Made by a program: the position numbers and the translations under genes. From the NCBI RefSeq assembly GCF_963675165.1, contig NC_087377.1, forward strand, positions 5,332,042 to 5,396,041: DNA of 64,000 nt, in the 5' to 3' direction. Under the pieces are notes generated by a model. The model saw only the letters and a program-made list of their open reading frames with translations. It was not told where the DNA came from and made no database searches. Below, one piece after another: positions 275 to 64,000 of the stretch. Positions within the stretch are counted from its first letter, which is position 1, and every line of letters starts with the position of its first letter. This DNA comes from Halichondria panicea (lineage: Eukaryota > Porifera > Demospongiae > Suberitida > Halichondriidae).

Positions 275-3200
275 ATGGCTACACCAGAAACGAAAGTGTT
301 GGAAAAGTGTTATCCTGATCTCGTGAAGTGTATTGAAATAGCACCTACTGATGTAGCAGTTAAGGTTAGACCACATGGATTACTTTCACCAAAGGATTTT
401 ATATACATCAACAATGACAATCGAGACAGAGATGATAAAGCAATAAGATTGTTAGACTCTGTGAGCAATCAGGTGTTGATAAACAAAGAATCTTTTCATC
501 TGTTTGTTAGTGCTTTGAAGGAAGCTGGAACTTTTACAAAGAGTGCAGTTGCTTTGCTTGAAGCAACATACAAGGACATTTCAAATCCTTCCTTTTGTGC
601 AGGTAAGATTATTGATCAATGCATAATTAAAGTGCTATGTTACTGCAAGTCTTCATAGCTTTGTAACTTCAATAACACCTTTTCAATATAATTATTATGG
701 GGTGGGGCACTTTTAATGTTACAGATGATCTCAATGTCAAGGAGCTGCCCCCTGATTCTGCAAGCAAATCTCCGACAGCTTCACAGCCTCATGCAGCTGC
801 CTGCAAGGTACACCTGCATGACCATAAACATTGTTTGTGTTCCTATATTATATGAATCGAGAGCCCCTATCAGCCATGGCACGGATCGGACATTCTGGTG
901 GCATTATATAATAATTATATACTCACTATAGGAACCACCCCCTCTAGCAGAACTCATAATTAGGCCACACCAAATTAATCTTATGTTTCACGAATTTTCC
1001 GGGTTATACTTTTGCAGAATACCCAAAAAAATAAACGAATTAGTGGTCCAGGTCAGAGGTCAGAATAGCCATGTGATCTAGCAAAACCAAGTGCGTATGA
1101 AGAGAAGAGGGCATGCAACTAATCAAATTACAAATGGGAGGGCGTGTGCACTAAAAATAGATTGCACGTGCACTTACTCCATAATAGTCACCAAGCCAGC
1201 TAGCTAGCTAGCACTGTACTGTTGGGTAGAGTTAGCCACAAAGGTCAACAAGCGGAAGAGAAGGACCAATGCTAGACTAGAAGTAGCCATTGATCAGCTC
1301 TTCTAAATTAATTGTGCGGCTAGTATAACAGTGTTCACGCCTACTATCACGCCTATTTACGTGTGGGCAGTTGGCTAAATATAGTATATCCTGCTGACTC
1401 ATCAGTATTTTGACGACTACATAGTATACATTGCGAGTTGCATGCCCTCTTCTCTTCATACGCCCTTGGCAAAATGTTATAGCTAAAGTGACTTTTTGTG
1501 GTGTGTTGTGACTCTGTTTGTGGTGTTATAATGATATTCATCAATTTTTTTTCTTTTTTTCCTGCCACCCTGATCTGTTTTTGGAGATTAAAAGTACGTG
1601 AAACATAAAATCAATTTGGTGTGGCCTTATGATCATGCACTGCATGGGTGATTATACAAATAAAAAAAGGAATTGGGTATTATTGATAGATCTCTCGTGT
1701 TTACTTTACTATACCCACTATTAGACCTCTATTTTCATTTATCACATGCATGGGCTTCAACTCTGGTGATATACATTATTCTATTTACATGTATGCCATT
1801 TTGTGCAGATAGAGGAGATGCAGATGTTTTGTACCGCTGACGATGAGAAATTGGAGCAGGTTGACCCCTCCAACATCCCAACAGATGCTCAGGGTGGGGT
1901 AGCACGACTCCACTTACTGTGGGATGTGGAGCAAATTCCAGAGCTGAAGATACATTTCTTGAATCCCGACATTCTTGAGGACGAGCACTGGAAATGTGGG
2001 CATGCGGGTCCCTTAACAGTCGACACTATCCTGGCTTGGGCTGCTGTCTGGAATAGCCATGCTGACAACTACCCACAGATTGCTGAGGGACTAGCAACAA
2101 AGGAAAAAGCCCATATCCGTGTGGAATTTCGGAGTATGTTCAGTTTCTATATACACTATAGCTGTATTGTAGCTCTTGGTTCTATCTATAGCTTATTGAA
2201 TTTCAGCTCAATGTGATATTACTTAGGCCATAGTCATGTACGTGCTTTAAGTGTTTGTTGTTACAGGGAAAGGGATCTCATGGTCCAAGGTTGGAACCAC
2301 AGCCACCTGGCAAAGTGACAAGAAGAAACCAACGATGGTGCTCAACTTGTATGGCATGACAAAAGCTGACCAGAGAAGCATGGTGATTCATGAGTTTGGC
2401 CATGCTCTAGGACTGGATCACGAGCATCAGCGATCTGACTTCTGGGATGTGCTGGAATCAAAAGATGAGGATGAAGAATATCGATTTATTATTGGGAAAA
2501 GGCGAATGAAGAGTGGAAATGGTGGGCGTTGCCAGCGAGCTTGTGATGCAGTTTTCAGAGCTAAGCTGAAGGAGCCATCCGGAAGAAAAGAATCCTGTTA
2601 CGATTCTGACAGTATTATGCACTATTGGTGAGTTGTACCATCACTATGATGATTAGCAGTGCTTATGCAACCACACTTATGCAACCACAAGTGCACTTCT
2701 TTGGATTCCTGCTTAATAGGTTATAGCCCTGCAATGTGCAACAGCTGTCACAAAAACCCACGTCCAACATCTGTAATTAACCAAACTTTTATCTCCTAAG
2801 GACTTATTAACCCGAGGCGTGCCGCGGCTAGGCCTGTGCCAAATATTCAAATTGTTTTCACCTATTATTCATTCGCACTTGATCAGCCTATTATTCAAAT
2901 TGATGACACCTATCAACATACACAGCAGTGAAAAATAAAACACCTATAAAGTATATATCGTATTACTAGAATATTTTGCTGGTGAAAAACCTTTGCGAAT
3001 GAGCCAAATCAGCAGAAAAGTTGACCCTTTGCGATCTAACTATTGCGTTTTGGCAAGGATCGTGTGTATTTATTAGTAACAATTTAGGTTTTGCGGATTT
3101 TATTGTTGCGAATTGATCAACCCTCGCAAAGTTCGATAATAATTCTGCAAAATGCATGGATACATGCACTAGTAGCATATTATGCTAACCTAATGTGTGC

Positions 3201-5383
3201 CCTGTATATAGTACTTACAATAGCGTGTACAAAGTAAAAATATTATACTAATGCAAGTGACAGAGGACAAAATCGATGTACTTTCCTGCAGCTCCAGTGG
3301 TAGTTCATTCCATATAGATATTGCTTTTGGGAAAAAGAGTTCGCATATGCATTTGTCCTGCAAATTGGTCTTTCAAACTGTATATTTTTTGTGCTTCTTA
3401 GATTGAGAGGGCATACTCTTCTTTCCAGTGGTATGTTTGATGCTCGCAGAACATTCTAGTAATACGGTAGCACAAAAAAATGGGATTATGTAATTTCAGC
3501 AGCGAACTTTAGCACAAAAAATGTGGTTTAAAATTGATTGGACTAACGATAATTATTAGATTTACTACCATGTAAAATGTGGGCTTGTTCTGAGCTACTG
3601 CGCATGTGCAACTCAATGAACTATTTTCACAGTGCTCAAATTGAAAAAAGGCTGTTCAAAAAATTATTCCGGACTATTTGGAACAGGCCTATAGCCACGG
3701 CTTATAGTAGTCAGTCAGTCTGTCTGTCTGTCGTTCTATGTATTCGGAGTCTATACTCACCTATGCGATAGCACAGTGTTTGTAGCATAGATAGCCTCAA
3801 TACCAAAAGGTAGTAGATTTTGAATTTTGATGTTAAGCTTCGTGTCGAATAAAAGCTAAGAAGCTAAAAAGCTCGAACCAGCACGTGTACAGGCGGCTTT
3901 GACTCGAGGCTGTAGACTCACTAAACTCAAACGAACGCCGAGGGTTTGCACTTCAGTTGCATGCATACACGGTTTCACAGTAAAAGGATCTAGTGCAGTG
4001 TAGTGAAATGCATGCATGGTTTAAATTGCAACTTGAGTGGATGTGTAAATTCTATATAATAATTATAGGTTTGACAAAAACTGGTTGTTGCCGGAGTATC
4101 ACAAAAGTGCGAATGTGGCTAAGGTTAGGAATGAGCGGGAGAGGAAGGTGCTATTTGGAGTTCATAAACGTGACTACCACAATGGGAATCTGGCAGAAAA
4201 ACCATCCAAGCTGGACTATGAGACATTGAATAGGGCCTATGAAAAACCAAGGTTTGATAATAATTATTATACTCAGCAAATGCAATACCAAATAATCAAA
4301 TATGACAAAATTGATAATTCATTAACTTGCCGAGTGAGGGGACTTAAATTCTACAATTTTGTGTCAGGGCCACAATGCTCCAACCATAATTTATGGGCCA
4401 ATTTTTGCCTCTCATAAATTAGGAACTGTACGTCAATGTAATGGGAACTCTTGTCCTCGTGTTCTTGTGAAAACAAAGCACAAAGCTTGCTCACTGCATT
4501 TAACGCTAAGTCTCATTTTAACTGCTTATGATTATACATGAGTACGGTAACATTTTTAGTGATCTAAAGTTCAAAGTACATGTGATTCATTGTGTAGAAA
4601 AGGCTGCAGTGAAATGGTCACATTTTGACTTCTCGTTAAATGTGCTTCTTGCATTTGTAGTGGGCTACCCGGCCCACCTGATGCTGCTGCTGCTCCTCCA
4701 ACGTTAACCACTGCCCAGTACACAAAGCCTGAAGGTGACCATAATTACACACATCACAAATAAATATTAATTATATCATTTCTGACACAATGCTATTTTT
4801 TGTTTCTATACCAGCCAACAAAACCCAAAGGTGAAGAGTACTATTCACCCACTGGGGGTACACAAATGCTAAACAATCACAATCATAATTATATAGTCTG
4901 TTATGTTTACTTATGAAAAAAATTGCAGCTTATTTTTTTATCTTTATACAGTTCAGACTGAAGCAACTGCAGCCCAGTTGAGTCAACAGTGTTCTAATGA
5001 CGCTCTCATCCAGTTGTCTACCGAGATTGCTGACTATAACGGTTTCAAAGTCAGGCTGGGCCTCAGTGATGCTGAAATTAACGCTATTGATCAGACACCT
5101 GCCACAATTAATGATATTCAAGGGAGATTTTTGACTGCTTTGAAAACGTGGCAGAGTACAGGCATGTTGGAAACACCAGCTACATGTACTTATGGTCGAT
5201 TAATGGACATTGCTAGGAATAAGAAGGACGGGTTTGCATTTAAGAGTATTCAAAGGGCTTGTATCAAGTATGCAGGTAAGTTTGTATTGCTCAGTATATA
5301 AAGTTTGAGTTCACACTCAAACATTGTACATGTACATTCTAGAGCCTCTAATGGAATGAACTTTTTTGCTTATAGGCTGCTGA
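275..5383 (+). CDS. Gene A1: CARD-like / metzincin protease / Death domain protein
   Basis: Predicted 561-residue protein from eight exons: 275-602, 725-807, 1809-2133, 2267-2627, 4069-4251, 4661-4734, 4952-5275 and 5376-5383. All introns are GT..AG and all phases agree. Residues about 5-105 resemble a CARD: LLSPKDF and KAIRLLDS, then a F..FV.ALKEAG helix. Residues 138-427 are a metzincin-type zinc protease: HEFGHALGLDH at about 287-297 gives the three zinc histidines and catalytic Glu, SIMHYW at about 361-366 is the Met-turn, and SKLDYETLNRAY looks like the closing helix. A proline/alanine linker ending KPEG leads to a Death domain (about 452-559). There is no signal peptide or membrane segment, so a cytosolic protein is inferred. 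The fold most resembles secreted microbial/fungal ZnMc peptidases or astacin-like ones, but without astacin's paired cysteines. The substrate is unknown. A 24-base microexon present in the paralogues has lost its acceptor here and is presumed skipped. Confidence 0.82.
2828..3694. mobile_element. About 865-bp TIR element in an A1 intron, absent from A3
   Basis: Begins CTAGGCCTGTGCCAAATA and ends TATTTGGAACAGGCCTATAG. In A3 the flanks GAGGCGTGCC and CCACGGCTTATAG are nearly adjacent (about 26632-26653), showing an unoccupied or cleanly lost site. A TACCGTATTAC-family element (2957-3469) is nested inside. No coding capacity. Confidence 0.7.
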
Positions 5384-6199: not shown

Positions 6200-9100
6200 A
6201 TGGCTACACCAGAATCGAAAGCGTTGGAAAATTGTTATCCTGATCTCGTGAAGTGTATTGAAATAGCACCTACTGATGTAGCAGATAAGCTTAAGCCATA
6301 TGGATTACTTTCACCAAAGGATTTTGTATACATCAACAATGTCAATCGAGACCCAGATGATAAAGCAAGGAAACTGTTAGACTCTGTGAGCAATCAGGTG
6401 TCGATAAACAAAAAATCCTTTCCTTCGTTTGTTACAGCTTTAAAGGAAGTTGGAACTTTTACAACGAATGCAGTTGCTTTGCTTGAAGCAACATACAAGA
6501 AATTTTTAAATCCTTCCGTTTGTGCAGGTAAGATTATTCTAGATCATATCAAGTGTACTATAATGTACTGCAGTTTTCGTAGCTTTGAAATTTCTATTTG
6601 CTCAACCTCTATAGTCTGAATCTACATTTTAAATCTTGTACAGGCCCCGATCCCATCGTCAAGGAGCCGCCCCCTGATTCTGAAAGCACTCCTCCACCAG
6701 CTTCACAGCCTCCCGAGGTACACCTGAACGTAAAATTATTTGTGTTCCTTATGACTGGAGAGCCTTCCTTATATCAGCCATAGATCGGATATTCTGATGG
6801 CATTTTGAGAGTATTCAGTGAATATGACATGCAGCATAAATTATAAATATTATTATAGTGAGGCAATACATGATTCATGCCCACTAGGAACCACCCCCCA
6901 CCCCTCAGGTAGAACTCAGTATGATCATTGCATGCATGGGTGATACGTTTTCTCAGGTATTGTAGATCATAAAGACTCTACTTTAAAGCTACCTATTAAA
7001 GTACAATTTAAATGACAAGGTGGTTTATGCAATTATTATAGAGCCATAACCTTATAGATAATGATTATCATGGGATCAATTCTGGTGGTACATCGTCCTA
7101 TATATTTATACGTGTGTGCAGAAAAAGGAGATGCAGAGGTTTTGTACCACTGACGATGAAAAACAGGTTGATCCAGCTGAGTCCTCCAACATCCCAATAG
7201 ATGCTCAGGGTGGGGTGGCACGATACCACTTGTTGTGGGATGTGAAGCAAGTTCGAGAGCTGAAAGTGCATTTCTTGAATCCCGACATTCTTAAGAAGGA
7301 AGACTGGAAATGTGGGCATGCGAGTTCCTTAACAGTCAACAATGTGCTCGACTGGGCCAATGTCTGGAATAGCCATGCTGACAACTACCCACAGATTGCT
7401 GATGAGCTAGCAACAAAGGAAGCTCATATCCGTGTGGAATTCAAGAGTATGTTCAGTCTATTTTGTATTAGTCTCTATAGTATAATAAGTGCTTGAGCTT
7501 CGCTCAATACATGTGAGATAAAAAAAAAAGCCACTACTTCTTTAAGACATCTCTTAGTCTGATTGATAATAATTATTATATACATTTCAATTAATCAGCT
7601 CATTATTATTGAGTGTTTATTTTTACAGGGAAAGGCATCTCATGGTCAAAGGTTGGAACCGCAGCCACCTGGGAAACTGATAAGAAGAAACCTACAATGG
7701 TACTCAACTTGTATGGCATGACAAAAGCTGACCAGAAAAGCATGGTGATTCATGAGTTTGGCCATGCTCTGGGACTGGATCACGAGCATCAGCATTCCGA
7801 CTTTTGGGATGTGCTGGAATCAAAAGATGATGAAGGTCAGTATCGTTTTATTATTGGGAAAAGTCGAATGAAGAGTGGAGATAGTAGGCATTGCCAGCCA
7901 GCTTGTGATGCAGTGTTTAGAGCTCAGCTGGATGCGCCATCTGGAAGAAAAGAATCCTGTTACGATTCTGACAGCATTATGCACTATTGGTGAGTTGTAC
8001 CATGCAGTGCTTCACCAATCTTAATGGAATGGTAGGAAAATTCACTTGTTAGGTTTTTGGTTAGCCCTGGTAACGTACATGCAGCAAGCCAGCTGTAATT
8101 TCACAAATGTAAAATGGATGAAACTTTATCCCTAATAAGGGCGCTTACTGCATGCATGCGTGGCTTCACAGTAAATTGAGTGATGGTGTAATTCTTAATG
8201 TATAGGTTTGACATCAATTGGTTGTTGTTGAAGTATCGCGACCGAGCATATATTGCCAAGCATGTGACAGATGATCGAGAGAGGAAGGTGTTGTTGGGAG
8301 TTCATGATCGTGACTACCACAATGGGCAGTTGGCAGAAAAACCATCCAAGCTAGACTATGAGACATTGAGCAGGGCCTATAAAGTACCAAGGTACGTGAT
8401 ATGATAGATGATTATTCGGCGAATAAGGCAATTGATTGAGAACTGCTATTGGCAAATTTTAGCACTCCATTCATTTGCCAAATCGCCATCGCCAATCGGC
8501 ATACCGTATTTACTTGATTAAACGTCCGAGCATTTATTTCCTAGCAGCATCTGTAAGGGGGCGTTTAAACGAGATGGGCGCTTATTCGAAACGGGCGTTT
8601 ATTGTTTTGTCTACTTCAAACTCTTGCTCATTAGCAGTTATTATGCTCTTTTTGGCTGCTGCCACAGCTCTCAGCTTAATCTTAAGTCGTAAGAGTGGTG
8701 TTTCTCCCTCTGTGTCCTCTCTGCCATCATAAATAGTATTCTATGCTGCCATTGTTTCAGCTGGTTCCACGTGCTAATTCAGCTCCACCCACAGTGCCAC
8801 GCCCCATACATGGGCGATTGATTAAGGGGCGTTTATTGACAAAGACAGCTTTTACCATGGGCGTTTAAACGAGATGGGCGTTTGTTTAATCAAGGAGGGC
8901 ATTTAATCAAGTAAATACATTAATTATATGTGACTGGCCATGTACATGCATCCATAATTATGGTCTTAATAATTATTGAACTTGTGCAATTCTATAGTGT
9001 GCTCTCCGCTACTAACAATTCACCCTCTGCCCAGCCTGAAGGTGAGTTACTATTATAATAGTGACACCTCTGATGAATGTGTTTTTTGCATAATTATAGG

Positions 9101-10279
9101 CTCCTGAGACGAGGTCACAAAACATAGGACAGTTATTATTTTTAGCATTAGCTGGCATATATTATATATTTTTTGAGAAATTTTGTGGTGCAAACTATAT
9201 ATACTTCCCATGTAGATCTTATCAACTAGCTAGCAATAAACGTGTCATACGCTATTCATGATGCCGATCTACTGTTATTATTATAGTATAGTGCATGCAG
9301 CAGTGTGGTTATGAGACATGATTTTTCCTTTTGGTATTGATGTGGTATGGGTACTCCACAATGGGTATGCATGGGTATTGATCAGGCTCTATTGCTGGTG
9401 GTCTCTATTGATGGGGTATTCCACATATCAAATATGGGGGTGGATACAAAGGAAGTGACTAGACTGCAACGCCAAGTCGCCATGTTCTACTGCATGACTC
9501 TGAATTTAGGAAACAATGTGAGTTAGAATTTAGTATGACTATCTATGCTATATTGTATAAATACACCCAGTATATATGCGTGTAGCTAGCACTGATGTGA
9601 GTATATTTAGACATTCTCTAACTAGCTCTAACCATTTAATCACTGAGTGAGCTGTAAATAATAGTCTGATTCGATAATATTGATAAGGTTTGTCTCAAAA
9701 TGAAAATGATTGTGTTGCAGAGCTTTAGAGCTGCGCATACAATGGATATCCTCTAGTCTGTCTGTCATTAGGCGTGCCACGAGTTATAGTAGTCGATATA
9801 CATGTGTATATAGCAATCCATTTCAAAGTAGCACAGTCTGAAACAATGTTGTTTTATGTTTCAGCCAACAATGAATAATTATATCATTTCTGACACAATG
9901 CTGTTTTAGAAGACCAGCCAACAAAACCCAAAGGTGAAGAGTACTATTCACCCACTGGGGTACACAAATTCTGCACAATCACAATCATAATTATATAGTC
10001 TGTTATGTTTACTTTAATATGAAAAAAATTGCAGCTTATTTTTTTTATCTTTATACAGTTCAGACTGAAGCAACTGCAGCTCAGTTGAGTCAACAGTGTT
10101 CTATAATGACGCTCTCATCCAGTTGTCTATATATAATTATACCGATATTGCTAACTATAACGGTTTCAAAGTCAGGCTGGGCCTCAGTGATGCTGAAATT
10201 AACGTTATTGATCAGTCACCTGTCACAATTAATGATATTCAAGGGAGAATTTTTATGCTCTGAAGAAGTGGAAGAGTAA
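6200..10279 (+). CDS. Gene A2: CARD-like / metzincin protease, Death exon frameshifted
   Basis: Second tandem copy, exons 6200-6527, 6644-6717, 7122-7446, 7629-7989, 8206-8391, 8998-9041, 9910-9933 and 10059-10279. The CARD-like exon and all three protease exons are open, with zinc motif HEFGHALGLDHEH and Met-turn SIMHYW intact. Linker exon 6 differs from A1 (ends AQPEG instead of KPEG). The 24-base EDQPTKPKG microexon is present. The last exon starts like the A1 Death exon, but a 2-base insertion near 10103 shifts the frame. The predicted protein (about 520 residues) therefore ends in about 60 unrelated residues. It would be a protease with its N-terminal CARD-like domain but no C-terminal Death domain. 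It may be a pseudogene or a functional shortened form; the intact protease exons favour recent damage or retained use. Confidence 0.72.
8506..8919. mobile_element. TIR element in an A2 intron
   Basis: Ends are inverted repeats: GTATTTACTTGATTAAACG on the left and its near complement on the right, with internal GGGCGTTTAAACGAGATGGG repeats. About 414 bases, no coding potential, absent at the matching place in A1 and A3. It is a non-autonomous DNA element of unassigned class. Confidence 0.65.
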
Positions 10280-10480
10280 AGGCAGCTTTAAATTGACAGC
10301 TGCTTACGGTCGATTAGTGGAAATCGCTAGGGAGGACGGATATGCATTTCAGAGTATTCAGTCTAAGTACCTGTATTGAGCATGCAAGTAAGTTCGTATT
10401 GTATAGTTTGAGTTCACACTCAATAATAATTATACTGTGTACATTCTAGAGCTTCGAAATGTTTTGCTATAGGCCCCTGA
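10059..10480 (+). pseudogene. Decayed Death-domain exon and stop exon of A2
   Basis: Aligned by eye with 4952-5275 and 61846-62169, this exon carries a 2-base insertion (TCTATAATGAC for TCTAATGAC), a 12-base TATATAATTATA insertion, a 1-base loss near 10250 and a 3-base insertion near 10357. The Death-domain reading frame cannot be followed through it. Its donor (about 10388) and the tiny stop exon GCCCCTGA at 10473-10480 are still recognisable. The change separates the A2 protease from its C-terminal interaction domain. Confidence 0.75.
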
Positions 10481-19228: not shown

Positions 19229-20428
19229 ATGTGTGATGAACTGTTACCATTATATGATAAACTCTATGATGCTCGTACTAAGTGGTTTGATATTGGATTG
19301 AACCTGAACATCAATAATGACGACTTGAGTGCGATAAACGTATTAAACAGCAAACCCCCTGAAATATGTCTCCGTGAAATGCTGACTGAACGTCTGCACT
19401 CTGGTGGTCCCCTCTCATGGAGGGATGTGTGTGACTGTCTCCGATCTTCAACCGTGAAACGTAATGATGTGGCGGAGAAGATTGAGGAGTGGAGAATAGG
19501 TACCCAAATAATTATAACATAATTATTATTGATTAATTCAGCAAATGATCACTTTTTTTGCTCTTCAATAGGAATGATGAGCAAAAAGCAGTCTAAATTT
19601 CCGTCTCCTTTATCAGAAACTGGCCTAATAGGTAAATATTGATTTTCGTAACCTGAACAATCAGTCAATGCATTACATGCAGGCTCAGATTGCTCAAGCC
19701 TGGATGACCAAGTTAAACACCTGGAGGAGATCTTTAATTTGCTAACTAACGAAGGGTATCGACGAATTAAGAAATCTGGCATTAGTGTAGAAGATTTCTA
19801 TGCTATTATAACGAGCATGAGTGTATCGTTAAAACACATTGCAGGAAATTATGTTGAAGAATGCTTTGAGAAAGCAAACACGCTCGCAAAGATGTGGGGC
19901 AAGTTAAATCAATTCTGGGATTTCTTAAACTATGAGCTCTTCCAACATGTGGTTCGAGTTATGTTCACTGAAGCAGGCGATCCTTTGCTGAGGAAGCTAG
20001 CCGAGTACGAAAGTGAAAGGGAAACATTTCTAAATGAAACGAAACTTTGCGATTTTGTTGACCATTGGCCGTTTTTAATCGCAAAGCCAAAGAAACGATC
20101 AATAGTTAAGTTGAAACGAATAGTCGTTAAAGTATGCAAAGAATGGAAAGACTGTACTTTGTATGATGTGAAGACAACTAACAAACTTTTTTCAAAAGGA
20201 TTTTCCTTACCTCAAGAATTTATGCTTGTGGCAGGTGGTATCAAGAGCAGTGTCTCCATCATCTTATACGTCCCTCCTTCTCTGGCCTACTCAATAGAGG
20301 AACAGGTGAAGCAAGGAAAAGAATTTAATTTCTTAGCAGACAACGGCTTTCTATCTATCACCATCGATGGTATCCAGGTCTACCCCCTGAGGCAGGCCTC
20401 TCTACAAGGTACTAGTTCTATACCCTAA
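19229..20428 (+). CDS. Gene C: Death domain plus unrecognised 240-residue module
   Basis: Exons 19229-19499, 19572-19631 and 19683-20408 (or running on to a stop at 20428) join in phase 1. The first encodes a Death domain of the W..(I/L)GL.L type: KWFDIGLNLNINNDDLSAI, then LSWRDVCDCLRSSTVKRNDV. It resembles the C-terminal Death domains of B1-B3. The third exon encodes about 240 residues without a family I can name. Its centre, FLNYELFQHVV followed by LLRKLAEYESERETFLNET, matches gene D (FLNYKIVDKIV, then a similar acidic helix). No signal peptide or membrane segment. The start is uncertain: an acceptor at 19226 would also allow entry from an upstream exon. The GTACTAG at 20409 may be a true donor to unseen exons, so the 3' end is provisional. 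Probably an adaptor-type cytosolic protein; that is inference. Confidence 0.62.
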
Positions 20429-23400: not shown

Positions 23401-23649
23401 TCTGATCCTGGAGCCACAGCAGATCTATATTGTCCATGAAAAATTACCCCACCGGCACGGCCCTATTTCTCTAGCGCTTTGAGGCCCCTCCAACGATATA
23501 TGGGGCCTCCAGTTCCCCCACGTACTTATAACTTTCAGTGTAGATATATAGTGGTATCTATATGCATGTAGCCTCAGCCTCATGCTCTAGATGTCCCTTG
23601 CTGACTATAGATCTTGCACAGTACTTAGTTACTCATAATTATGTCCAAG
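20429..23649. other. Gene-poor region between C and A3
   Basis: No supported gene. An inverted repeat spans 21073-21283 (arms around GCTTGCACACTAGTCTGAA). A solo TAGCC-family end lies at 21372-21409. The rest is AT-rich sequence with short unsupported open frames. It ends where the truncated A3 copy begins. Confidence 0.45.
21073..21283. repeat. Inverted repeat (foldback)
   Basis: The left arm, including GGTGTTGTCGAGAAGGCTTG and CACACTAGTCTGAA, is repeated in reverse complement at 21220-21283, leaving a loop of about 80 bases. Open frames across it are the palindrome read in both directions, not genes. Confidence 0.65.
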
Positions 23650-24526
23650 TGCTTTGAAGGAAGCTGGAACTTTTACAAAGAGTGCAGTTGCTTTGCTTGA
23701 AGCAACATACAAGGACATTTCAAATCCTTCCTTTTGTGCAGGTAATTAAGATTATTGATCAATGCATAATTAAAGTGCTATGTTACTGCAAGTCTTCATA
23801 GCTTTGTAACTTCAATAACACCTTTTCAATATAATTATTATGGGGTGGGGCACTTTTAATGTTACAGATGATCTCAATGTCAAGGAGCTGCCCCCTGATT
23901 CTGCAAGCAAATCTCCGACAGCTTCACAGCCTCATGCAGCTGCCTGCAAGGTACACCTGCATGACCATAAACATTGTTTGTGTTCCTATATTATATGAAT
24001 CGAGAGCCCCTATCAGCCATGGCACGGATCGGACATTCTGGTGGCATTATATAATAATTATATACTCACTATAGGAACCACCCCCTCTAGCAGAACTCAT
24101 AATTAGGCCACACCAAATTAATCTTATGTTTCACGAATTTTCCGGGTTATACTTTTGCAGAATACCCAAAAAATAAACGAATTAGTGGTCCAGGTCAGAG
24201 GTCAGAATAGCCATGTGATCTAGCAAAACCAAGTGCGTATGAAGAGAAGAGGGCATGCAACTAATCAAATTACAAATGGGAGGGCGTGTGCACTAAAAAT
24301 AGATTGCACGTGCACTTACTCCATAATAGTCACCAAGCCAGCTAGCTAGCTAGCACTGTACTGTTGGGTAGAGTTAGCCACAAAGGTCAACAAGCGGAAG
24401 AGAAGGACCAATATGCTAGACTAGAAGTAGCCATTGATCAGCTCTTCTAAATTAATTGTGCGGCTAGTATAACAGTGTTCACGCCTACTATCACGCCTAT
24501 TTACGTGTGGGCAGTTGGCTAAATAT

Positions 24527-25107
24527 TAGCCTCGATCCCAGCCCCTCTCACCAGAGGGCCTGGTAAACACTGTTTGCGCGTGGGTGGATTCAATAGTAAA
24601 TTTGTTAGTAAAACTCTTTGCAATTAACCTTTTGTACTATGGTCACCCACGTGGTTGATAAAACTGAGAGAAATCGCCATCACAACTCTAGGCTCATACG
24701 AGGAGCACTGATCTTACTGAGATGGCATCAAACAAGTGTCTGGAAGCAAGTAGATTTGCTAGAGCCGGTCGGTACTGACAGAAAAACGCCTACCACTCTA
24801 CCACAGTACAAAAGAAGACAAAATCTGACTTTTCAACACTGGAGAGAGCTTGAGCAAGAGCAGAACAGAAGTAGAAGCCATCACAACAAAACTAGTTACT
24901 AGTCTAGGTCGTAAATGTTGTAAGTAGCTGTGTTATTTTATTAAAACTGCTGTGATTTGTGCAATGACATCATTGTAAAATATACAATATACTGACTAAT
25001 TTACTAAGATATCTCGATCCCCAAGAATCTTGGGGCAACTGACGCATGCGCAGACAATGTATACCAGGCCGTCTTTCCCAATTGAGAGCGGCCTGGAATC
25101 GAGGCTA
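24527..25107. mobile_element. 581-bp Mutator-like MITE in A3 with 9-bp target duplication
   Basis: Starts TAGCCTCGATCCC and ends GGAATCGAGGCTA. It is flanked on both sides by GCTAAATAT, and the A1 intron at about 1374-1382 shows the unoccupied site with a single GCTAAATAT. The element is non-coding; the 94-codon frame inside it has no recognisable domain. Terminal sequence TAGCCTCG recurs at 32767, 37131, 40798, 43864, 44958 and elsewhere. Confidence 0.85.
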
Positions 25108-26335
25108 GCTAAATATAGTATATCCTGCTGACTCATCAGTATTTTGACGACTACATAGTATACATTGTGAGTTGCATGCCCTCTTCTCTTCATACGCCCT
25201 TGGCAAAATGTTATAAGCTAAAGTGACTTTTTGTGGTGTGTTGTGACGCTGTTTGTGGTGTTATAATGATATTCATCAATTTTTTTTCTTTTTTTCCTGC
25301 CACCCTGATCTGTTTTTGGAGATTAAAAGTACGTGAAACGTAAGATCAATTTGGTGTGGCCTTATGATCATGCACTGCATGGGTGATTATACAAATAAAA
25401 AAAGGAATTGGGTATTATTGATAGATCTCTCGTGTTTACTTTACTATACCCACTATTAGACCTCTATTTTCATTTATCACATGCATGGGCTTCAACTCTG
25501 GTGATATACATTATTCTATTTACATGTATGCCATTGTGTGCAGACAGAGGGGATGCAGATGTTTTGTACCACTGGCGATGAGAAATTGGAGCAGGTTGAC
25601 CCAGCTGATGCCTCCAACATCCCAATAGATGCTCAGGGTGGGGTGGCACGATACCATTTACTGTGGGATGTGGAGCAAATTCCTAAGCTGAAGATACATT
25701 TCTTGAATGACGACATCCTTGAGGACGAGCACTGGAAATGTGGGCATGCGGGTCCATTAACAGTTGACACTATCCTGGCTTGGGCTGCTGTCTGGAATAG
25801 CCATGCTGACAACTACCCACAGATTGCTGAGGGACTAGCAACAAAGGAAAAAGCCCATATCCGTGTGGAATTTCGAAGTATGTTCAGTTTCTATATACAC
25901 TGTATTGTAGCTAAGCTCTTCGTTCTATAGCTCATTGAATTTCAGCTCAATGTAATATTACTTAGGCCATAGTCATGTATGTGCTTTAAGTGTTTGTTGT
26001 TACAGGGAAAGGGATCTCATGGTCAAAGGTTGGAACCGCAGCCACCTGGGAAACTGACAAGAAGAAACCAACGATGGTGCTCAACTTGTATGGCATGGCA
26101 AAAGCTGACCAGCGAAGCATGGTAATTCATGAGTTTGGTCATGTTCTGGGACTGGATCACGAGCATCAGCGATCTGACTTCTGGGATGTGCTGGAATCAA
26201 AAGATGAGGATGAAGAATATCGATTTATTATTGGGAAAAGACGAATGAAGAGTGGAGATGGTGGGCGTTGCCAGCGAGCTTGTGATGCAGTGTTCAGAGC
26301 TAAGCTGAAGGAGCCATCCGGAAGAAAAGAATCCT

Positions 26336-26449
26336 GTTACGATTCTGACAGTATTATGCACTATTGGTGAGTTGTACTATCACTATGATGATGTTACGAT
26401 TCTGACAGTATTATGCACTATTGGTGAGTTGTACCATCACTATGATGAT
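26336..26449 (+). repeat. 57-bp tandem duplication across an exon end in A3
   Basis: A 57-base unit from GTTACGATTCTGACAG through the Met-turn codons, the TATTG donor and the first intron bases is repeated head to tail (26336-26392 and 26393-26449, one mismatch). A1, A2, B2 and B3 have one copy. The second copy holds a duplicate donor site, and 57 is a multiple of three. Confidence 0.8.
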
Positions 26450-28349
26450 TAGCATGCAGTGCTATATTGCAACCACACTTATGCAACCACAAGTACACTT
26501 CTTTGGATTCCTGCATGCATGCAGAAATTAGGTTACAGCCGTGCAATGTGCAACAGCTGTCACAAAAACCCAATCCAACATCTGTAATTGACCAAACTTT
26601 TATCTCCTATATATAAGGACTTATTAACCCGAGGCGTGCCACGGGCCACGGCTTATAGTAGTCGGTCAGTCTGTCTGTCTGTCTGTCTGTCGGTCGTTCC
26701 ATGTATTCTGAGTCTACTCACCTATGTGATAGCACTGTGTTTGTAGCATGGATAGCCATGCACAACACCAAAGGGTAGTAGTTTTAAATTTGGTAGATTT
26801 GAATTTTGATGTTAAAGCTTTGTGTCGAATAAAAGAGAGCAAAAGCTAAGAAGCTAAAAAGCTCGAACCAGCACGTGTACAGGCGTCTTTGACTCGAGGC
26901 TGTAGACTCACTAAACTCAAATGAACGCCGAGGGTTTGCACTTCAGTTGTATACACGTTTCACAGTAAAAGGAGCTAGTGCATGCAGTGTAGTGAATCGA
27001 TGTTCACTATACATGCATGCATGCATGGTCTAAATTGCAACTTGAGTGGATGTTGTGAATTGCTACTTTTCAATGTGTATTATAGGTTTGACAAAAACTG
27101 GTTGTTGCCGGAGTATCAGGAAAGTGCGAATGTGGCTAAGGTTAAGAATGAGCGGGAGAGGAAGGTGCTATTGGGAGTTCATAAACGTGACCACAACAAT
27201 GGGAATTTGGCAGAAAATCCATCCAAGCTGGACTATGAGACATTGAATAGGGCCTATGAAATACCAAGGTTTGATAATCATTATTATAATCAACATTTGA
27301 ATTTGATGCATTGACATCAATAACAAAATTAATAATTCACATATCTTTTAACTTGCCGAGTGAGCGGACTTAAATAATTATTGTTATAAATGTTATGTTC
27401 CAACCATAATTTATAGGCCAATTCTCGCCTCATAAATTGGGAACTATACGTCAATGTAATGGGAACTCTTGTCCTCGTGTTCTTGTGACAAAGCTTGCTC
27501 ACTGCGCTAGTCTAATTTAAATGCTTATGATTACATGAGTACGGTAACATTAATTATTTTGTAGTGATCTATAGTTCAAAGTACACATAATTCATTGTGT
27601 AAAAAAGGCTGCAGTGAAATAGTCACATTTTATTTCTCGTTAAAATTATGTGCTTCTTGCATTTGTAGTGGGCTACCCCCACCTGATGCTGCTGCTGCTC
27701 CTCCAACGGTAACCACTGCCAAGTACACAAAGCCTGAAGGTGACCATAATTACACATTACACAAATTTGAATAATTATATGACACAATGCTGTTTTTTGT
27801 TTCTTTTATATAGAAGACCAGCCAACAAAACCCAAAGGTGAAGAGTACTATACACCCACTTTGTACACAAATTCTGCACAATCATAATTATATAGTCTGC
27901 ATAAAGAATTGTTTAGCTTATGAAAAATTTACAGCTAATTTTTTAAATCATTACAGTTCAGACTGAACCAACTGCAGCTCAGTTGAATCAACAGTGTTCT
28001 AATGACGCTCTTCTCCAGTTGTCTACCAAGATTGCTGACTATAACGGTTTCAAAGTCAGGCTGGGCCTCAGTGATGCTGAAATTAACGCTATTGATCTGA
28101 CGATTAGTGATATTCCAGGAAGGTTTTATACTGCTCTGAAAAGGTGGAAGAGTAAAGGCATGTTTGATTCGACAGCTACTTATGGTCGATTAATGGAAAT
28201 CGCTAAGAAGAAGGAGGATGGAGAGGCATTTCAGAGTATTCTAAGTGCCTGTATTGAGCATGCAAGTAAGTTGTATTGTGAACTCAAACTATACTGTATA
28301 CATTCTAGAGCTTCTAATGGAATGAAATGTTTTTGCTATAGGCCCCTGA

Positions 28350-34776: not shown

Positions 34777-37700
34777 ATGCCTAGGCTCAACATCAACGAT
34801 TTGAAGAAACAAACGAAAGTATCAGACGATCAATTGGGACAAGAATGCCAGAAAAAACACTTGAAAAAAATTACACAGGATGTCGAAAACTATCCTCAAT
34901 TTGCCTCTAAATTTGACTTGCCCCCTGATGTCAAAGCTGAAATTGACACTGATAATAAATTGTTGTATGGCCAAAAAACTGAGAAAGTTTTCCTGTGGTG
35001 GAGAAAAAATAGCGGAAATTCTACTTACTTGACGTTTGTGCAAGCATGCCTCGAGCTTGGCCAAGGGGATATAGCACGCAAAATGTGCAAAATGTGTAAA
35101 GGTATAATAATTATGCAACAGTTAACTACATAAGCTTAATTAACTTTGCAGAGTCAATGTAATGTATAGTGTTTCTTTTATGTAGAGGGTCTACCTGACA
35201 TGACAGCTAATTTATAGAAACTGAACTGAATAGATAGCGGGTAATTTTATTTTCGTATAAACTGATGCCCATTTATTTGTACAGATCAGTATAGTGATGT
35301 TGAACCTATTGCAGTATTGCAGAATAAGTATACGTGTAAGCTACCATTTTTGTCTATCGAGATATTTTGTTCCATCTTGCAGATACCGTAGTCAAGACAA
35401 CAACTAAATCTATACAATACGAAAAATTTCCACCATACGAAAATAACCCGCTATATTATTATTGATACCCATTCACATTTTAAACTTGCAGATACTATTG
35501 CCCAGCCAACCTCTGAATCTGGAAGTATTTCTCCACCAGTTTCACAGACCCTAGGCCTTCAACAACGCAGTACCGTACGCGACAAAATCTCAGTACCGTC
35601 TGATCGAAGTAAGGTAGTAACTAAGTAAGGAAGTATATATATATAATGAAGCCAACCACCGGCATACAAGTTACCCAAACTGAATGGTGAAACCTAACAT
35701 GTCATGTCATGTATGTAGGCTGTTACCATTTTTGTCTATCTATAGCCGATTAACAGGCATTTTGTTCCTCACATTATAAATTTTAATCTTGCAGACACCG
35801 AAGTCAAGGAGACAACCTCTAAATCTGCAAGTACTTCTCTGCCAGTTCGCCCAGTTGCCTTCAAAATTCCAGTACAGCATACTCAAGGTAAGGTATGATA
35901 TCACCAGCCTGTGCATTGGAGTGTGAAGCAAGTTGGACATATAATTATGGCCATTGGGCATATTATTATCTCCTTTGCCCAGCCGTAAGGTATTTTGTCT
36001 AGCCAGGTACCTGAACCAACATGCACTGAAACTGCATGCATGAAACAATTGATGGAAATGGGAAGAGAGAACAATATACATAGTGGAAACAAAATATATA
36101 GGTATAGCCAGGCTATACCACCATTTTTATGCTTTGAGGCGTATAGCTGCACGAAAAATTCAGTAAAGCTGACTGTATGTGCATGAGTGCATGTGTGTGT
36201 CTGCATGTCTGTTTATTCTAGCTGTAATCACATGTTGTCCTATTGTTCACTGGGATTCGTACAGTGAAATCGCGTATCAGTAATTGCACGTCGTCAAGGC
36301 AGTAATTGCACGTCATTATTAACGATGTGCAATTACTGCCTTGACGACAGCACATTCGAATAACGGCCGCGGCTAATTTTTTTTACTGAAACTGCAACTA
36401 AAAATGTCCTTAAAACTGCATCAAAAACGATTAACAATCAATAGTATGGCTACTCGTGCAATAAGGGATTAATAGCACTCATAACAAGCACTGGCAAGGT
36501 TAATAGCAATTAGTATCCTTGCCATTGCTTGTTACTCGTGCTATTAATCCCATATTGCAAGTTCTTAGCCATACTATTAAATGCATGCCCAACGGCTAAG
36601 CAACTCTAACAGCTTCTATATAATATAGCCATTTTCTCTTGGACTTTGATTGTGGATTTGCAAACGAGCTATGGTTTTAATTGTTGCAGTCTCTTTAGAA
36701 TCGTGTGCATGTATATACATATAGCATCATCTGTTCGCACAACGTTTCTATTCAATTTATGACCCTAGCTATAATTGCACCAAAGGCTTGCCTACAAGAG
36801 AGCTGCAATAAGCTGTACTGCAGCCATTTGTGCATTGAGAGTGCAAAGAGGTCAGAGTCATGACTCTGACCTCTTTGCAGATCCACTCATTGAGTAATAC
36901 CATATAGCGGGTAATTTTCTTGTAAAAATTTCGTTTGACTTCAGTACCAGCACTGCATTGCATGCGTTCCGACAACCATGCCTACGTTTTGTGGAAGTCA
37001 GCTAGCCCACGAAAGTAACTAATTTTACCCCATGAAAATTATACCCATTATACGGTACTGAACTTCTACCAACGTAAGACGACAACAAACATAATTGTAT
37101 GTTATGATTGTATTATGGTTACAGTTTACTAGCCTCGTTCCCAGGCCTTACTTTTTCTTGCTGTTGTCACTGTTCATCCATAAACATAAGAAAGACATAG
37201 TGAGGCAGCAAAGAAAGAAATGGGCGTACAGTTAAGAAAAGTAAGGCCTGGTTTGGGAAATCGCGTGATCCACAAGGATTTTTATGAACGTGGGCGATAT
37301 GTAGCCCACAATCGTGACGTAGGTATTCTCCCACGCATTCGGAGTAAGACTGTACTGTACTGCACTGAGACAACCACCAAGCTGTGCTGCAAGTCAGATC
37401 AGAGAACCAGCGTGGCCAGCTCTGGTGGCAGTAGCTACCTGCTATATGATAATGATGACTAAGCTATTCTACTATAGCATGTAGAAAGACACAAGAAAAG
37501 GTAATAGTGATAGAATCTAAACACACAATCTAGACTAGTAGATCATCTAGCTAAGCCTAAGGTATAGCTAGCTATAGTGCTTGCAAACTTCCAGTTCCAA
37601 GTCCATGTCCAGCTTGCTGCAGGCAAAGTTTTACTAGTCGTAGACCTCTGCGTGGGCAGTCCAACATCTCTAGCTCAGTATGCCCACGCTCATTTTCACC

Positions 37701-40543
37701 CTTCTACCACCCTTCTACCCTCACGCGACTTCCCGATACAGGCTCTCCTTTTTCCTAACTTTACGTCTATTTCTTTCTTTATTCCTCCAATTAATACTGT
37801 ATTTTATCTCATTGAACGAAAATACAGTATTTTATCTTATTGAACGATTGTGATAAAGAACAGAAAAAGGAGAGCCTGTGTAGAGGCTAACAGTTTACTA
37901 GCTATAATATTATTATAATTATGTACAGGTCAGTATGGTATACTTATAACTTGGTCCCCCGTGGGTGTTGCTACTCACAGAAAATATTCATCGGTCACCA
38001 ATATCAATTTATTCTTGTTCTATGCAGGTCTTGTACAGAAAATCCTATCAACCAGGCATGTACAATTTATTTGTGCATGCCTGGTTGCAATTGTGGGCTT
38101 CGCGATCCTGTATAATTTTATTGCAAAAGGTTTGTAGGCTTAGCTTGCTATAATGTGATATGACACCTAACTCTTATCAGCACACTTCCTTTCATAATCA
38201 ACGAATTACATGCATGCATCTGCATATAAATTAGGTGCATTCCTCAGTCTGCATGGATGTGCAGGGATGTGCAAGGAGAGTTTCTGTTTTGAACCTATCA
38301 TGAATGATGTCGGCCTGAACAATAAGTGCACTTTGTAAATTTATTTTAAACTGAGATTAGAAGCAACTTTTTACAGGCAATTTGGATCTGAACCTCATGC
38401 AGGTTCCGAATCTGCGACAGAGGGGATGCAGATGTTTTGTACCACCGAAAAAGAGGAGCTGGAGCAGGTTGACTCAGCTGATCCCTACAAGATCCCAACA
38501 AATACTCAGGGTGCATGGGTAGCACCATACCACTTGCTGTGGGATGTGAAGCAACTTCCCGATCTGAAAGTGCATTTTTTGAATCCTGACATTCTTGACA
38601 ACGAACACTGGAAATGTGGGCATGCGGGTCCCTTAACAGTCGACATTATCCTGGCTTGGGCCGCTGTCTGGAATAGCCATGCTGATCACTACCCTAAAAT
38701 TTCTAATTATGTAGCAAAAAGGAAAAAAGCTCATATCCGTGTGAAATTCACCAGTGACAGTGAGTATGTTCAGTCTCTATACACAGTACTGCAGTGTACT
38801 ATAAATGTTCCTCATAACAACCACCACATGCATAATTAAGACAGCACAGCTCTAGGTATAACACTCATGTACTACAAAGAGGCATGAACATGTATGTACC
38901 TTGCATTTACAGAGAAAGTGTTCTCATGGTCAACGGTCGGACGATCGGCGTTGGACGTAGACAAAAATGAGCCGACAATGATGCTCAACTTGTTTGGCAT
39001 GACGAAAGCTCTCCAGGGAAGCACGGTGATTCATGAATTTGGCCATGCTCTAGGACTGTATCACGAGCATCAGCGATCCGACTTCTGGGATGTCTTGGAA
39101 CCATTCACTATCGGAGAAAGTCGAATGAAGAGCGGAGATGGTGGACGTTGCGAGCCAGCTGTTAATGCTGTGTTCAGAGATAAGCTGAATGCGCCACACT
39201 GGAGTCAAATATCCAGTTACGACCCAGACAGTATTATGCACTATTGGTGAGTTAATTGTACTATGCAGCCCTTGCAGTGCCAAACACACTCTTTAGATTC
39301 CTGTTTACTGAAGTAGCAGGGGCTATTATTTCTAAAAGCTAATAATTATCATGCAATAATAGCGAACCCTATAGCTATAATAAGGATCTGCTTGGATGGT
39401 TTCACTGTAAAAAATTGAGTATACGATTGAATGATGATCGACATTTATGTAGGTTTGACACGAAATGGTTGTTATTGAAGTATCAAAATCGTTCAAATGT
39501 GGCCAAGTATGTGAAAGATGAGCGAGAGAGGAAGGTGCTGTTTGGAGTACATGACCGTGACTACTCCAATGGGGAGTTGGCAGAAAATCCCTCCAAGCTA
39601 GACTATGAAACATTGAATAGGGCCTATGAAGTAATAAGGTATTATGAGCTCTTGATACAACTATACATGCATGAGCTTGTATCTTTAATTTTTTACCGGT
39701 AAATTGTTGATAGTGAGTGCCTGCACCATACACAAGGCATTTCGTTTGTCATTGTCAGGTCCCCAAGGTAGCCTCTCTCATTTATTAGCATAGTTGCCAG
39801 GAGTAACATGCACATAATAGACGGCTGTATAATCATTATTATTAATTTGTGAGTCAATAATTATTATAATACGCACTTCTTTGCATAATTGTAGCGGACA
39901 AAAGGTGCCCCTAACTACAGCTGCTGCTGGTCCCCAAGGCACTTCCCAGCAAACAAAGCCTGAAGGTGAACAATTGCATGCATGAATGCTTAACTGAATC
40001 ATTGGAAGAAATTTAGCATACTGGATTGTTTCAGAATCAGGAACTTATTATTGTCTGGATAATTGGCCTCCAACATAAGGCTATTGCATGCACTGTATAA
40101 AAAAAGCTTAGCTGCATGGTATGAATAGCTCTTCGTGTGTATGTATCTAAAATGACCCAATTTGAGCTTTATGATTTGTATGACATCGTGCTTACGTGAA
40201 TACTTTAGGATCATCATCAGATGAGTATTCAAGCAAACAATCTAACGTCATAGAAATTGAGAAACAATCAATTGTTTTAACTGAAGCGGATATTCTAACA
40301 ATTTGCGAGGGTCTGAAAACTGCAAGCAATAATTGGTTAATTTTAGGATTGGCTCTCGGAGTGAAGTTATACGATTTAAAAAACATCGAAAGTAGATACC
40401 AAGATAACAGGCGCTGCCTAATGGAGATGATAATCAAGCTTCTTGAAATCGCTGACCCAAAACATCCAATCACCTGGCTCTACATATGTGAATGTCTAAG
40501 GAATATTGATCGTAAAGATGTAGCCAATCTATTATGTGGCTAG
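34777..40543 (+). CDS. Gene B2: Death / transmembrane / metzincin / Death protein
   Basis: Predicted 656 residues from exons 34777-35101, 35285-35335, 35492-35608, 35795-35887, 38028-38129, 38403-38759, 38913-39246, 39453-39638, 39895-39965 and 40209-40543; phases agree throughout. N-terminal Death-fold domain (about 1-108), Ser/Thr/Pro linkers from duplicated exons, then a single hydrophobic helix (FICACLVAIVGFAILYNFIA, about residues 207-226) preceded by basic residues. The protease keeps HEFGHALGLYHEH and SIMHYW but lacks about nine residues between them seen in A1 and B3. KPEG linker and a C-terminal Death domain (WLILGLALGVKLYDLKNI) follow. There is no signal peptide, so a type II membrane protein with cytosolic N-terminus is inferred. 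That would put the protease and last Death domain outside the cytosol, which is unusual. Regulation cannot be read from the sequence. Confidence 0.75.
35233..35458. mobile_element. Split TIR element carrying B2 linker exon 2
   Basis: AGCGGGTAATTTTATTTTCG at the left and CGAAAATAACCCGCTAT at the right are the ends of the TACCGTATAG family. Between them lie B2 exon 2 (35285-35335) and a damaged linker-exon copy (from 35384) that runs into the element. Either the element captured exon sequence, or an exon copy was interrupted by it. Confidence 0.5.
36290..36348. repeat. Palindrome in B2 intron
   Basis: GTCGTCAAGGCAGTAATTGC (36290 on) is mirrored at 36324-36348 around a short loop. It sits inside a larger unit that ends with ATAACGGCCGCGGCTA, a motif also found at 41761. 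Confidence 0.6.
36440..36579. repeat. 140-bp imperfect palindrome in B2 intron
   Basis: Arms of about 60 bases around GTGCTATTAATCCCATATTG and its complement, loop of about 16 bases. Non-coding foldback element. Confidence 0.6.
36898..37057. mobile_element. TIR element of the TACCGTATAG family in B2 intron
   Basis: TACCATATAGCGGGTAATTT at left, ATTATACCCATTATACGGTA at right, about 160 bases. Same family as 17471-17657 and 41788-41987. Confidence 0.6.
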
Positions 40544-54129: not shown

Positions 54130-54240
54130 GATTCTTTCACTTAGAAATTGATTGTGGTAAATTTCTGCATTTGGGTGTATGATATGAGGCCAGATGATGA
54201 TGACTAAATCAACCTCCTGAACGGCTTCATGGCGCGGCAA

Positions 54241-54540
54241 AGCCCAGAGGAGGCGCGAAGCACTTAACCTTTGCTCATTAGGTCTCTAATTGCCGTTGTG
54301 TTAATTGCATGCCAGTCTCGTAAATTAGCCGCCCTTCCTAAGTGAGAGACCTAGGAAGGGCGGCTGATTTGTGAGACTAACCAACAAGCTGAAAGACATC
54401 TAGCCTCCTTCTCAAGGCCTGAAAGTGGTCGCAAAGCAGCTAGGCTAAACGCACAAGTTAGTTTTATTCTCTGTGTTACGTTTTAATAATCCATTCTCGT
54501 TCACACAGTTAATGTGCATGTGACGCTCATTCAACTCTAA
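54241..54540. other. Upstream flank of the phospholipase D gene
   Basis: No gene. It contains the hairpin 54313-54379 and a solo piece of repeat. Any phospholipase D promoter would lie here, but no element is recognisable. Confidence 0.4.
54313..54379. mobile_element. Hairpin MITE upstream of the phospholipase D gene
   Basis: CAGTCTCGTAAATTAGCCGC at the left and GCGGCTGATTTGTGAGACTA at the right form a hairpin of about 67 bases. Termini match the hairpin at 16369-16427. No target duplication is obvious at this copy. Confidence 0.6.
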
Positions 54541-63676: not shown

Positions 63677-64000
63677 TATAATTGACCTTTGACATTTTTT
63701 ATGCGATGATGCGAGTTTTTTTTATATAATTATGCTGATGCCTTGTCAAAAATGTGCATTCCCGCATCCGATTTTAAGGAAAAGGCCTGAAAAACAAGTG
63801 ATTTAGCGTGGGAAACAACTGTTAATTGTATACAGACACAAAGACGTATGAGTCCCAACTTTTATATACATTTTACATAACAACACAACATAACTCATTA
63901 GAGAAGGTATTATGGACAAATTGCAGCTTATTGATAGCCTAGAAATATGGGGGGGCTCCAGCCCCTAGAGCCCCCCCCCTTCCTACGCCACTGTATAATT
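63677..64000. other. Window end, repeat only
   Basis: AT-rich, no gene. From about 63946 the GGGGGGGCTCCAGCCCC and CTACGCCACTG terminus of the element family seen at 12236-12480 appears, cut or ending close to the window edge. Confidence 0.45.

Follow-up and report, generated by a model that had tools for sequence, protein, structure and literature searches.

A sponge gene family that joins CARD-like and Death domains to a bacterial-type metzincin protease

The proteases known to be gated by Death-fold domains in animals are, to our knowledge, caspases and paracaspases, and a gene of the breadcrumb sponge Halichondria panicea raises the question of whether a zinc protease can occupy the same position. 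The gene lies at 275-5383 (+) of the window, by which we mean the whole 64,000-nucleotide stretch analysed here, contig C1 (NC_087377.1):5332042-5396041 of a 131 Mb genome in 39 contigs. An initial annotation of this DNA had read a CARD-like domain, a zinc protease and a Death domain in one phase-consistent gene, and this reading holds. Eight exons (275-602, 725-807, 1809-2133, 2267-2627, 4069-4251, 4661-4734, 4952-5275 and 5376-5383), with consistent phases and GT/AG borders at every intron, encode 561 amino acids identical to the RefSeq entry 'uncharacterized protein LOC135335838 [Halichondria panicea]' (100% identity, 100% coverage), hereafter P0001. Exon 1 encodes the CARD-like Death-fold domain (residues 1-109); exon 3 encodes residues 138-245, comprising a proposed pro-segment and the first part of the catalytic domain; exon 4 holds the active site; exon 5 closes the catalytic domain in the exon and AlphaFold models; and exon 7, a phase 1-1 exon, encodes a type-1 Death domain (D1). 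By the exon model, exons 2 and 6 are linkers, and the short exon 8 carries the stop codon. The joining of the three domains, in the order CARD-like, metzincin, Death, is thus confirmed as real. The absence of a visible signal sequence was likewise borne out: the N-terminus of P0001 is not hydrophobic, with a highest 15-residue hydropathy of 0.99 in the first 45 residues versus 1.85–2.41 in the five bacterial relatives measured.

The zinc protease that had been read from the letters is present with both of its motifs intact. The active-site sequence HEFGHALGLDHE (HExxHxxGxxHE) spans residues 287-298, the Met-turn SIMHY spans residues 361-365, and P0001 scores 30.2 bits against Pfam Astacin (PF01400; cut-off 22.5). 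This match and the glutamate that follows the third histidine, E298, place the enzyme in family M12A (astacin), and no Pfam match to Peptidase_C14 was found in P0001 at E values up to 10, which sets it apart from caspases. Within M12A, P0001 is nearest to myroilysin both in the tree and in the fold comparison, and the protease is of the bacterial type rather than an animal astacin minus its signal. Animal astacins share the above-cut-off Pfam Astacin match and are described as extracellular enzymes with a signal peptide and a prodomain bearing an FXGDI motif (PMC9848320); in contrast, FxGD is absent from 13/13 proteins of the sponge family, and P0001 has no hydrophobic start. The six canonical astacins of H. 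panicea form a separate clade that does not include the Death-fold protease family. The tree, the fold comparison and the missing FxGD rule out descent from an animal astacin by loss of the signal peptide. Bacterial contamination or recent transfer is ruled out by introns running through the catalytic domain, by the position of the array of related genes inside an 18 Mb contig and by the distance of the prokaryote relatives, which share at most 34% identity across stretches longer than 100 residues and as much as 51% across stretches of about 65 (among the best 80 of 128 confirmed). AlphaFold gave a poor model of P0001 from 10 sequences (mean predicted local distance difference test score, pLDDT, 46.2) and one that was good in the catalytic domain only from 68 sequences (mean 66.7).

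On one point the initial annotation needs revision, as it saw no propeptide. The segment before the catalytic domain is likely a pro-segment, and Cys145 (codon 1830-1832, +) is likely the place of a myroilysin-type cysteine switch, judging from conservation and alignment with bacterial relatives. The motif around it, FCT, is kept in 12/12 protease units of the array. Among 13 family proteins, 11 have a cysteine at the corresponding upstream distance (assigned by eye), set in FCT, FCY or YCT in eight and in other contexts in P0008, P0011 and P0013; the two that lack it are P0012 and P0006, an isoform missing that part. In a 24-row alignment, the cysteine shares one column in 8/11 sponge-type and 10/13 bacterial-type rows (by eye). 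When the P0001 model is aligned with pro-astacin, pro-meprins and proMMP-9, the matched range starts between residues 136 and 149.

The two terminal domains are assigned with less certainty. Scanned alone, exon 1 matches Pfam CARD at 17.8 bits (E 0.0035; cut-off 23.9) and exon 7 matches Pfam Death at 14.0 bits (E 0.058; cut-off 22.6), so that the profile check places the metzincin above its cut-off and both Death-fold domains of P0001 itself below theirs. These weak matches were tested through relatives of the two exons from the same genome. Among 13 exon-1-like domains (exon 1 and others 22–78% identical to it), six match CARD at E ≤0.1 (best 2.1e-5, and one relative scoring exactly at the cut-off of 23.9 bits) and three match CARD_2; four unrelated families match one domain each, and Pfam listed no Death-fold family besides CARD and CARD_2 for these 13 domains. 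Against the Protein Data Bank (PDB), the exon-1 family profile finds the CARDs of ICEBERG (0.0021), caspase-1 (0.057) and procaspase-9 (0.065) and the chain Gogy (0.0025), the CARDs being interspersed with unrelated helical chains. A protein-collection search with residues 1-109 returned P0001 as the sole match among 86 candidates. The exon-7 set comprises ten domains including exon 7 (the others 55–79% identical to it), nine of which match Pfam Death (best 4.4e-7). In the family proteins, Death passes its cut-off in 4/10 (P0002, P0004, P0005 and P0008) and is weak in P0006, P0007 and P0010; P0001 matches solely when exon 7 is scanned alone, and P0003 and P0009 have no Pfam Death match. Searched against the PDB, the D1 profile ranked two unrelated chains above its Death-domain match, that of TNFRSF25, which was weak (E 1.2). 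AlphaFold places six helices at residues 6-103 and six at 468-558, with 10-residue pLDDT means of 37–73 and about 40–80. Structure searches with the P0001 model returned lists filled by protease matches, none of which bears on the CARD-like and Death folds.

P0001 belongs to a family. A genome search with P0008 gave 87 matches, of which 44 cover the active-site segment (counted from the match table); they sit in the array on C1 that includes the window, in an array on C3 (1.36–1.46 Mb) and at scattered loci. Along C1:5310001-5486000, we mapped 12 protease units, all on the + strand and head to tail. Death-fold exons flank the protease on both sides in nine units, on one side in three and on neither side in none, and the metzincin motifs (HExxHxxGxxH and Met-turn) are readable in 11/12 units. 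Two of the nine two-sided units are imperfect, as unit 5 keeps the last part of the CARD-like exon and the D1 exon of unit 4 is frame-broken; in unit 10, the active-site exon is broken. A chance meeting of weak domain matches is ruled out by the nine two-sided units. In six of these nine, the N-terminal domain is of another kind, D1b, which matches Pfam Death in 4/9 (best 0.0004) and DUF1835 in 4/9 (best 0.012); one of the three window copies scanned matches Death (0.025), more weakly than it matches DUF1835. Profile-profile comparison relates D1b to D1 (probability 96.4, E 1.3e-9) rather than to the CARD-like profile (0.3), and in the PDB it comes closest to the Fas death domain (E 0.022), ahead of syntaxin-binding protein 1 (0.069) and ankyrin-2 (0.24). 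We keep D1b as Death-related by profile.

The combination recurs outside the array. On C7, protease exons share a 2.5 kb stretch of locus L015 with a CARD-like and a Death-like exon (31% identical in each case), and the same domain order recurs in L014, whose CARD-like domain is recognised by alignment alone; their Death-like exons match Pfam Death at 0.013 and 0.0077. By their sequences, the C7 loci are an independent copy of the CARD-like/Death/metzincin combination. On C8 (L016), a CARD-like match (27%) precedes another N-terminal exon and a protease, possibly within one gene. All ten family proteins P0001-P0010 are named 'uncharacterized' in RefSeq, although several carry both domain annotations. 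Among the 8000 candidates scored in the protein searches, those with the most words in common, the family appeared in no other named animal.

Selection acts unequally on the parts of these genes. The median ratio of nonsynonymous to synonymous rates (omega) came to 0.30 across 44 pairs from 10 units in the active-site exon, to 0.40 across 35 pairs from 9 units in the first catalytic exon, where one pair reached 1.05, and to 0.56 across 21 pairs from 7 exons in D1, two of these exons coming from non-protease loci. The catalytic exons are under purifying selection, and constraint is tighter on the active site than on the docking domains. Between the CARD-like exons of units 3 and 4, the nonsynonymous rate (dN) is 0.114 and the synonymous rate (dS) 0.088, from 27 nonsynonymous and 6 synonymous changes, too few for a claim of positive selection.

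The same kinds of Death-fold exons occur at loci that are candidate partners of the protease. A genome search with the D1 exon gave 103 matches, most at 47–62% identity and mainly in C1:0.05–3.1 Mb. In the ten contexts read, the exon begins with TACAG/TTCA in seven and with a variant AG acceptor in two, the acceptor not being shown in one (L023:6541), and it ends at a GTRAGT donor in the same place in 10/10. Loci L024 and L023 each contain two D1 exons, a type-2 Death exon and a COR-like open reading frame (ORF), which in L024 matches COR-A below cut-off (5e-6) and in L023 was recognised by eye (no Pfam match). L024 adds an Ig ORF and L023 a ZU5 ORF, both above cut-off, and L022 (C1:1580001-1590000) has one D1 and one type-2 Death exon in 10 kb. 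The type-2 Death exons match Pfam Death below its cut-off in L023 and L024 and have no match in L022. The type-2 Death domain of P0004 gave 150 scored matches among 356 candidates, and the best outside the protease array (68%), at C1:8.01 Mb, adjoins an ORF with sub-cut-off Roc, COR-A and Ig matches. The CARD-like domain gave 38 genome matches, many in a cluster on C12, where one precedes an ankyrin ORF (L018); on C14 (L020), another precedes an ORF with sub-threshold ATPase_2 and NB-ARC matches. Also at C1:8.01 Mb, a single 275-residue ORF (L021:5422-6246) encodes both a Death-like domain, which at 18.5 bits stays below cut-off, and a CARD-like domain sharing 52% identity with exon 1. The genome also contains caspase-type genes, with 33 C14 matches, some of which are parts of one gene.

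We lean towards reading P0001 as a zinc protease that is latent in the cytosol and controlled by Death-fold assembly, in the manner of an initiator caspase but with a bacterial-type metzincin, and judge this somewhat likely. The reading builds on the architecture, the intact active site, purifying selection, the conserved cysteine, the shared Death exon type and the candidate partner loci observed here. The CARD-like and Death domains would dock onto their counterparts in upstream sensors and adaptors, for which the candidates are the STAND-like or ankyrin genes with the CARD-like type, the COR-like/Ig/ZU5/Death genes with the D1 exon type and the CARD-Death adaptor. Placed between the CARD-like and catalytic domains, the pro-segment would hold the enzyme off, Cys145 being the likely zinc ligand as in myroilysin. 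Clustering in the assembly may displace or trans-cleave the pro-segment, and the freed protease would cut intracellular targets with a death or immune output, caspase-2 on its PIDD/RAIDD scaffold being the model for this working mode. Because caspases are also present, the zinc proteases would be an additional arm.

Several observations weigh against this proposal. The CARD and Death scores of P0001 itself lie below the cut-offs, as do all Roc, COR-A, NB-ARC and ATPase_2 matches at the candidate partner loci, where the COR-like, Ig, ZU5 and Death ORFs would form single genes judging from their order and strand. Death-fold docking is unreadable from sequence, and the likeness between the protease and the partner loci may reflect exon shuffling alone. 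When the model is aligned with the myroilysin chains 5gwd and 5czw, which are long, the match starts from its residue 1 and not near Cys145, and the pLDDT of residues 104-167 is below 50. The metagenome relative P0012, whose tail looks Death-like by eye, has no such cysteine and begins with a signal-like sequence (hydropathy 1.98), and P0006 has a hydrophobic stretch at 170 (2.67). The docking, latency, proximity activation, substrates and output of P0001 are what we infer. An inflammasome-like role, or one resembling the death-inducing signalling complex, had been offered by the initial annotation as an inference; it keeps that standing, and we do not file P0001 as an inflammasome component.

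Other explanations start from the same observations. The gene predictor might have fused CARD-like, protease and Death exons of separate transcripts, and a transcript starting near D1 is conceivable, as P0005 carries a D1-like domain N-terminally (by eye; Pfam Death at 38-102). We give such an artefact very little weight, since the domain order repeats in 9/12 array units, the AG acceptor at the start of D1 in 9/10 contexts calls for an upstream exon, protease and Death both pass their cut-offs within the single RefSeq proteins P0002, P0004, P0005 and P0008, and L015 packs CARD-like, Death-like and protease exons into about 2.5 kb. The array might instead turn over rapidly, most copies being decoys or non-functional proteins; the broken D1 of unit 4, the broken active-site exon of unit 10 and the excess of dN over dS between the CARD-like exons of units 3 and 4, though from too few changes to test, would fit. 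Purifying selection on the catalytic exons and the motifs still readable in all but one unit make this improbable as well.

Two further explanations grant the protease a function and differ on its targets. It may damp rather than execute a signal, docking on Death-domain sensors through its D1, D2 or CARD-like contacts and cleaving sensors or adaptors to end their signal. The resemblance of its Death modules to sensor-type loci would make sensors the nearest candidate substrates, and the genome retains its own caspase set, but the conserved upstream cysteine suggests an enzyme that is latent until assembly, and nothing in this analysis points to sensors as substrates. We consider this unlikely, though it is the strongest of the rivals. 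Less likely still is a protease that serves antimicrobial defence or digestion by degrading ingested microbes, in the phagosome or the cytosol, and is merely placed by its Death-fold domains. Sponges feed on bacteria, the catalytic domain is bacterial-type and P0012 has its signal-like start, yet P0001 has no hydrophobic N-terminus, and placement alone poorly explains two Death-fold domains of the kinds found at sensor loci. Beyond the assembly-gated protease itself, a complete zinc-based counterpart of the caspase-initiator system is conceivable, in which sensors of the COR-like/Ig/ZU5/Death type and CARD-Death adaptors act together with a family of metzincin zymogens gated by Death folds. 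It would have arisen in the sponge when a bacterial-type protease with a cysteine switch was joined to shuffled Death-fold exons, and the docking domains of the family would diversify while the active site is kept. We offer this larger picture only tentatively and regard it as rather doubtful.

The rest of the window shows how the array is laid out. Downstream of the 275-5383 gene follow, all on the + strand, a unit of CARD-like, metzincin and frame-broken D1 exons (6200-10361), which is likely decaying; a duplicate unit with a partial CARD-like exon, metzincin and D1 (23648-28264); and two sister units with a Death-like domain (D1b), metzincin and a Death domain (D2) at 34783-40540, corresponding to P0004, and at 46326-51935. 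Window positions 604-1780 and 23747-25515 share blocks that are 99–100% identical, the copy lying about 23 kb downstream of the 275-5383 gene, and this near-identity indicates a very recent segmental duplication. A Phospholipase D-like gene (PF00614, PF13091) lies within the array at 52598-54285 (-), and a 258-residue open frame at 19652-20425 has no Pfam match. From 58413 to the window's end at 64000, and on to C1:5399425, D1b, an ORF (60285-61196; roughly 300 residues, no Pfam family above cut-off) and D1, D2 and D2b Death exons follow one another with no protease exon between; the stretch may represent a gene of the adaptor or sensor type lying within the array.

Elsewhere in the genome, the C3 family proteins P0007-P0009 have N-terminal regions unlike those of the C1 array. 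A Pfam scan of the start of P0007 gave no match, and that of P0010 gave Ish1 alone (0.15); the front module of the protease family seems to have been exchanged. P0011 (LOC135347766 isoform X2) combines a family protease with a weak SAM-like stretch (SAM_2 0.063) and PF03637, which we take to be Mob1/phocein, in a single RefSeq gene model that might itself be a fusion. Long tandem repeats of a 'TVHTVGPHYRLCTPA'-like unit surround the Death exons of L022, and on C7 a dynamin-like GTPase ORF (PF00350; L015:8091-9305) directly follows the CARD-like/Death-like/metzincin locus.

Each ingredient of this family has a relative among known systems. Myroilysin and other bacterial M12A enzymes begin with a hydrophobic stretch in the five relatives measured, whereas the H. 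panicea family is spliced, lacks such a start and is flanked by Death-fold domains. In the portions of their paper accessible to us, Kaur and colleagues (PMC8195603) describe expansions of Death and TRADD-N domains in Amphimedon and list caspase, PNPase and HD as the enzymatic ends of sponge Death-like proteins; the likeness lies in a lineage-specific expansion of Death-like proteins with variable enzymatic ends, and those portions name no metzincin among the ends. A related paper (PMC7159879) notes rare metallopeptidase effectors in bacterial conflict systems, and the part of it we could consult names no Death and metzincin protein. Within the open-licence literature, as far as it was accessible to us, we found no published description of such a protein.

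If the proposed role is correct, the Death-fold system can drive unrelated proteases, with different catalytic chemistry placed on the same kinds of docking modules, and a bacterial-type protease became an intracellular, assembly-gated enzyme. The family hints that the breadcrumb sponge has a second type of enzyme for switching on death or immunity, one based on zinc, and makes it possible to test directly whether caspases alone are activated by proximity. Initiator caspases that carry CARD or DED domains, caspase-2, -8 and -9, likewise fuse one or more Death-fold modules to a protease zymogen; they are clan CD cysteine proteases, whereas the sponge family consists of metalloproteases in a genome where caspase-type genes coexist. 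The PIDDosome consists of PIDD1 (ZU5-Death), RAIDD (CARD-Death) and caspase-2, and its parts list appears to be mirrored by the ZU5/Death loci, the ORF joining CARD-like and Death-like domains and the CARD-like protease of H. panicea. The sponge system, known from sequence alone, has COR-like and Ig domains where the PIDDosome has leucine-rich repeats, and a metzincin where the PIDDosome has a caspase.

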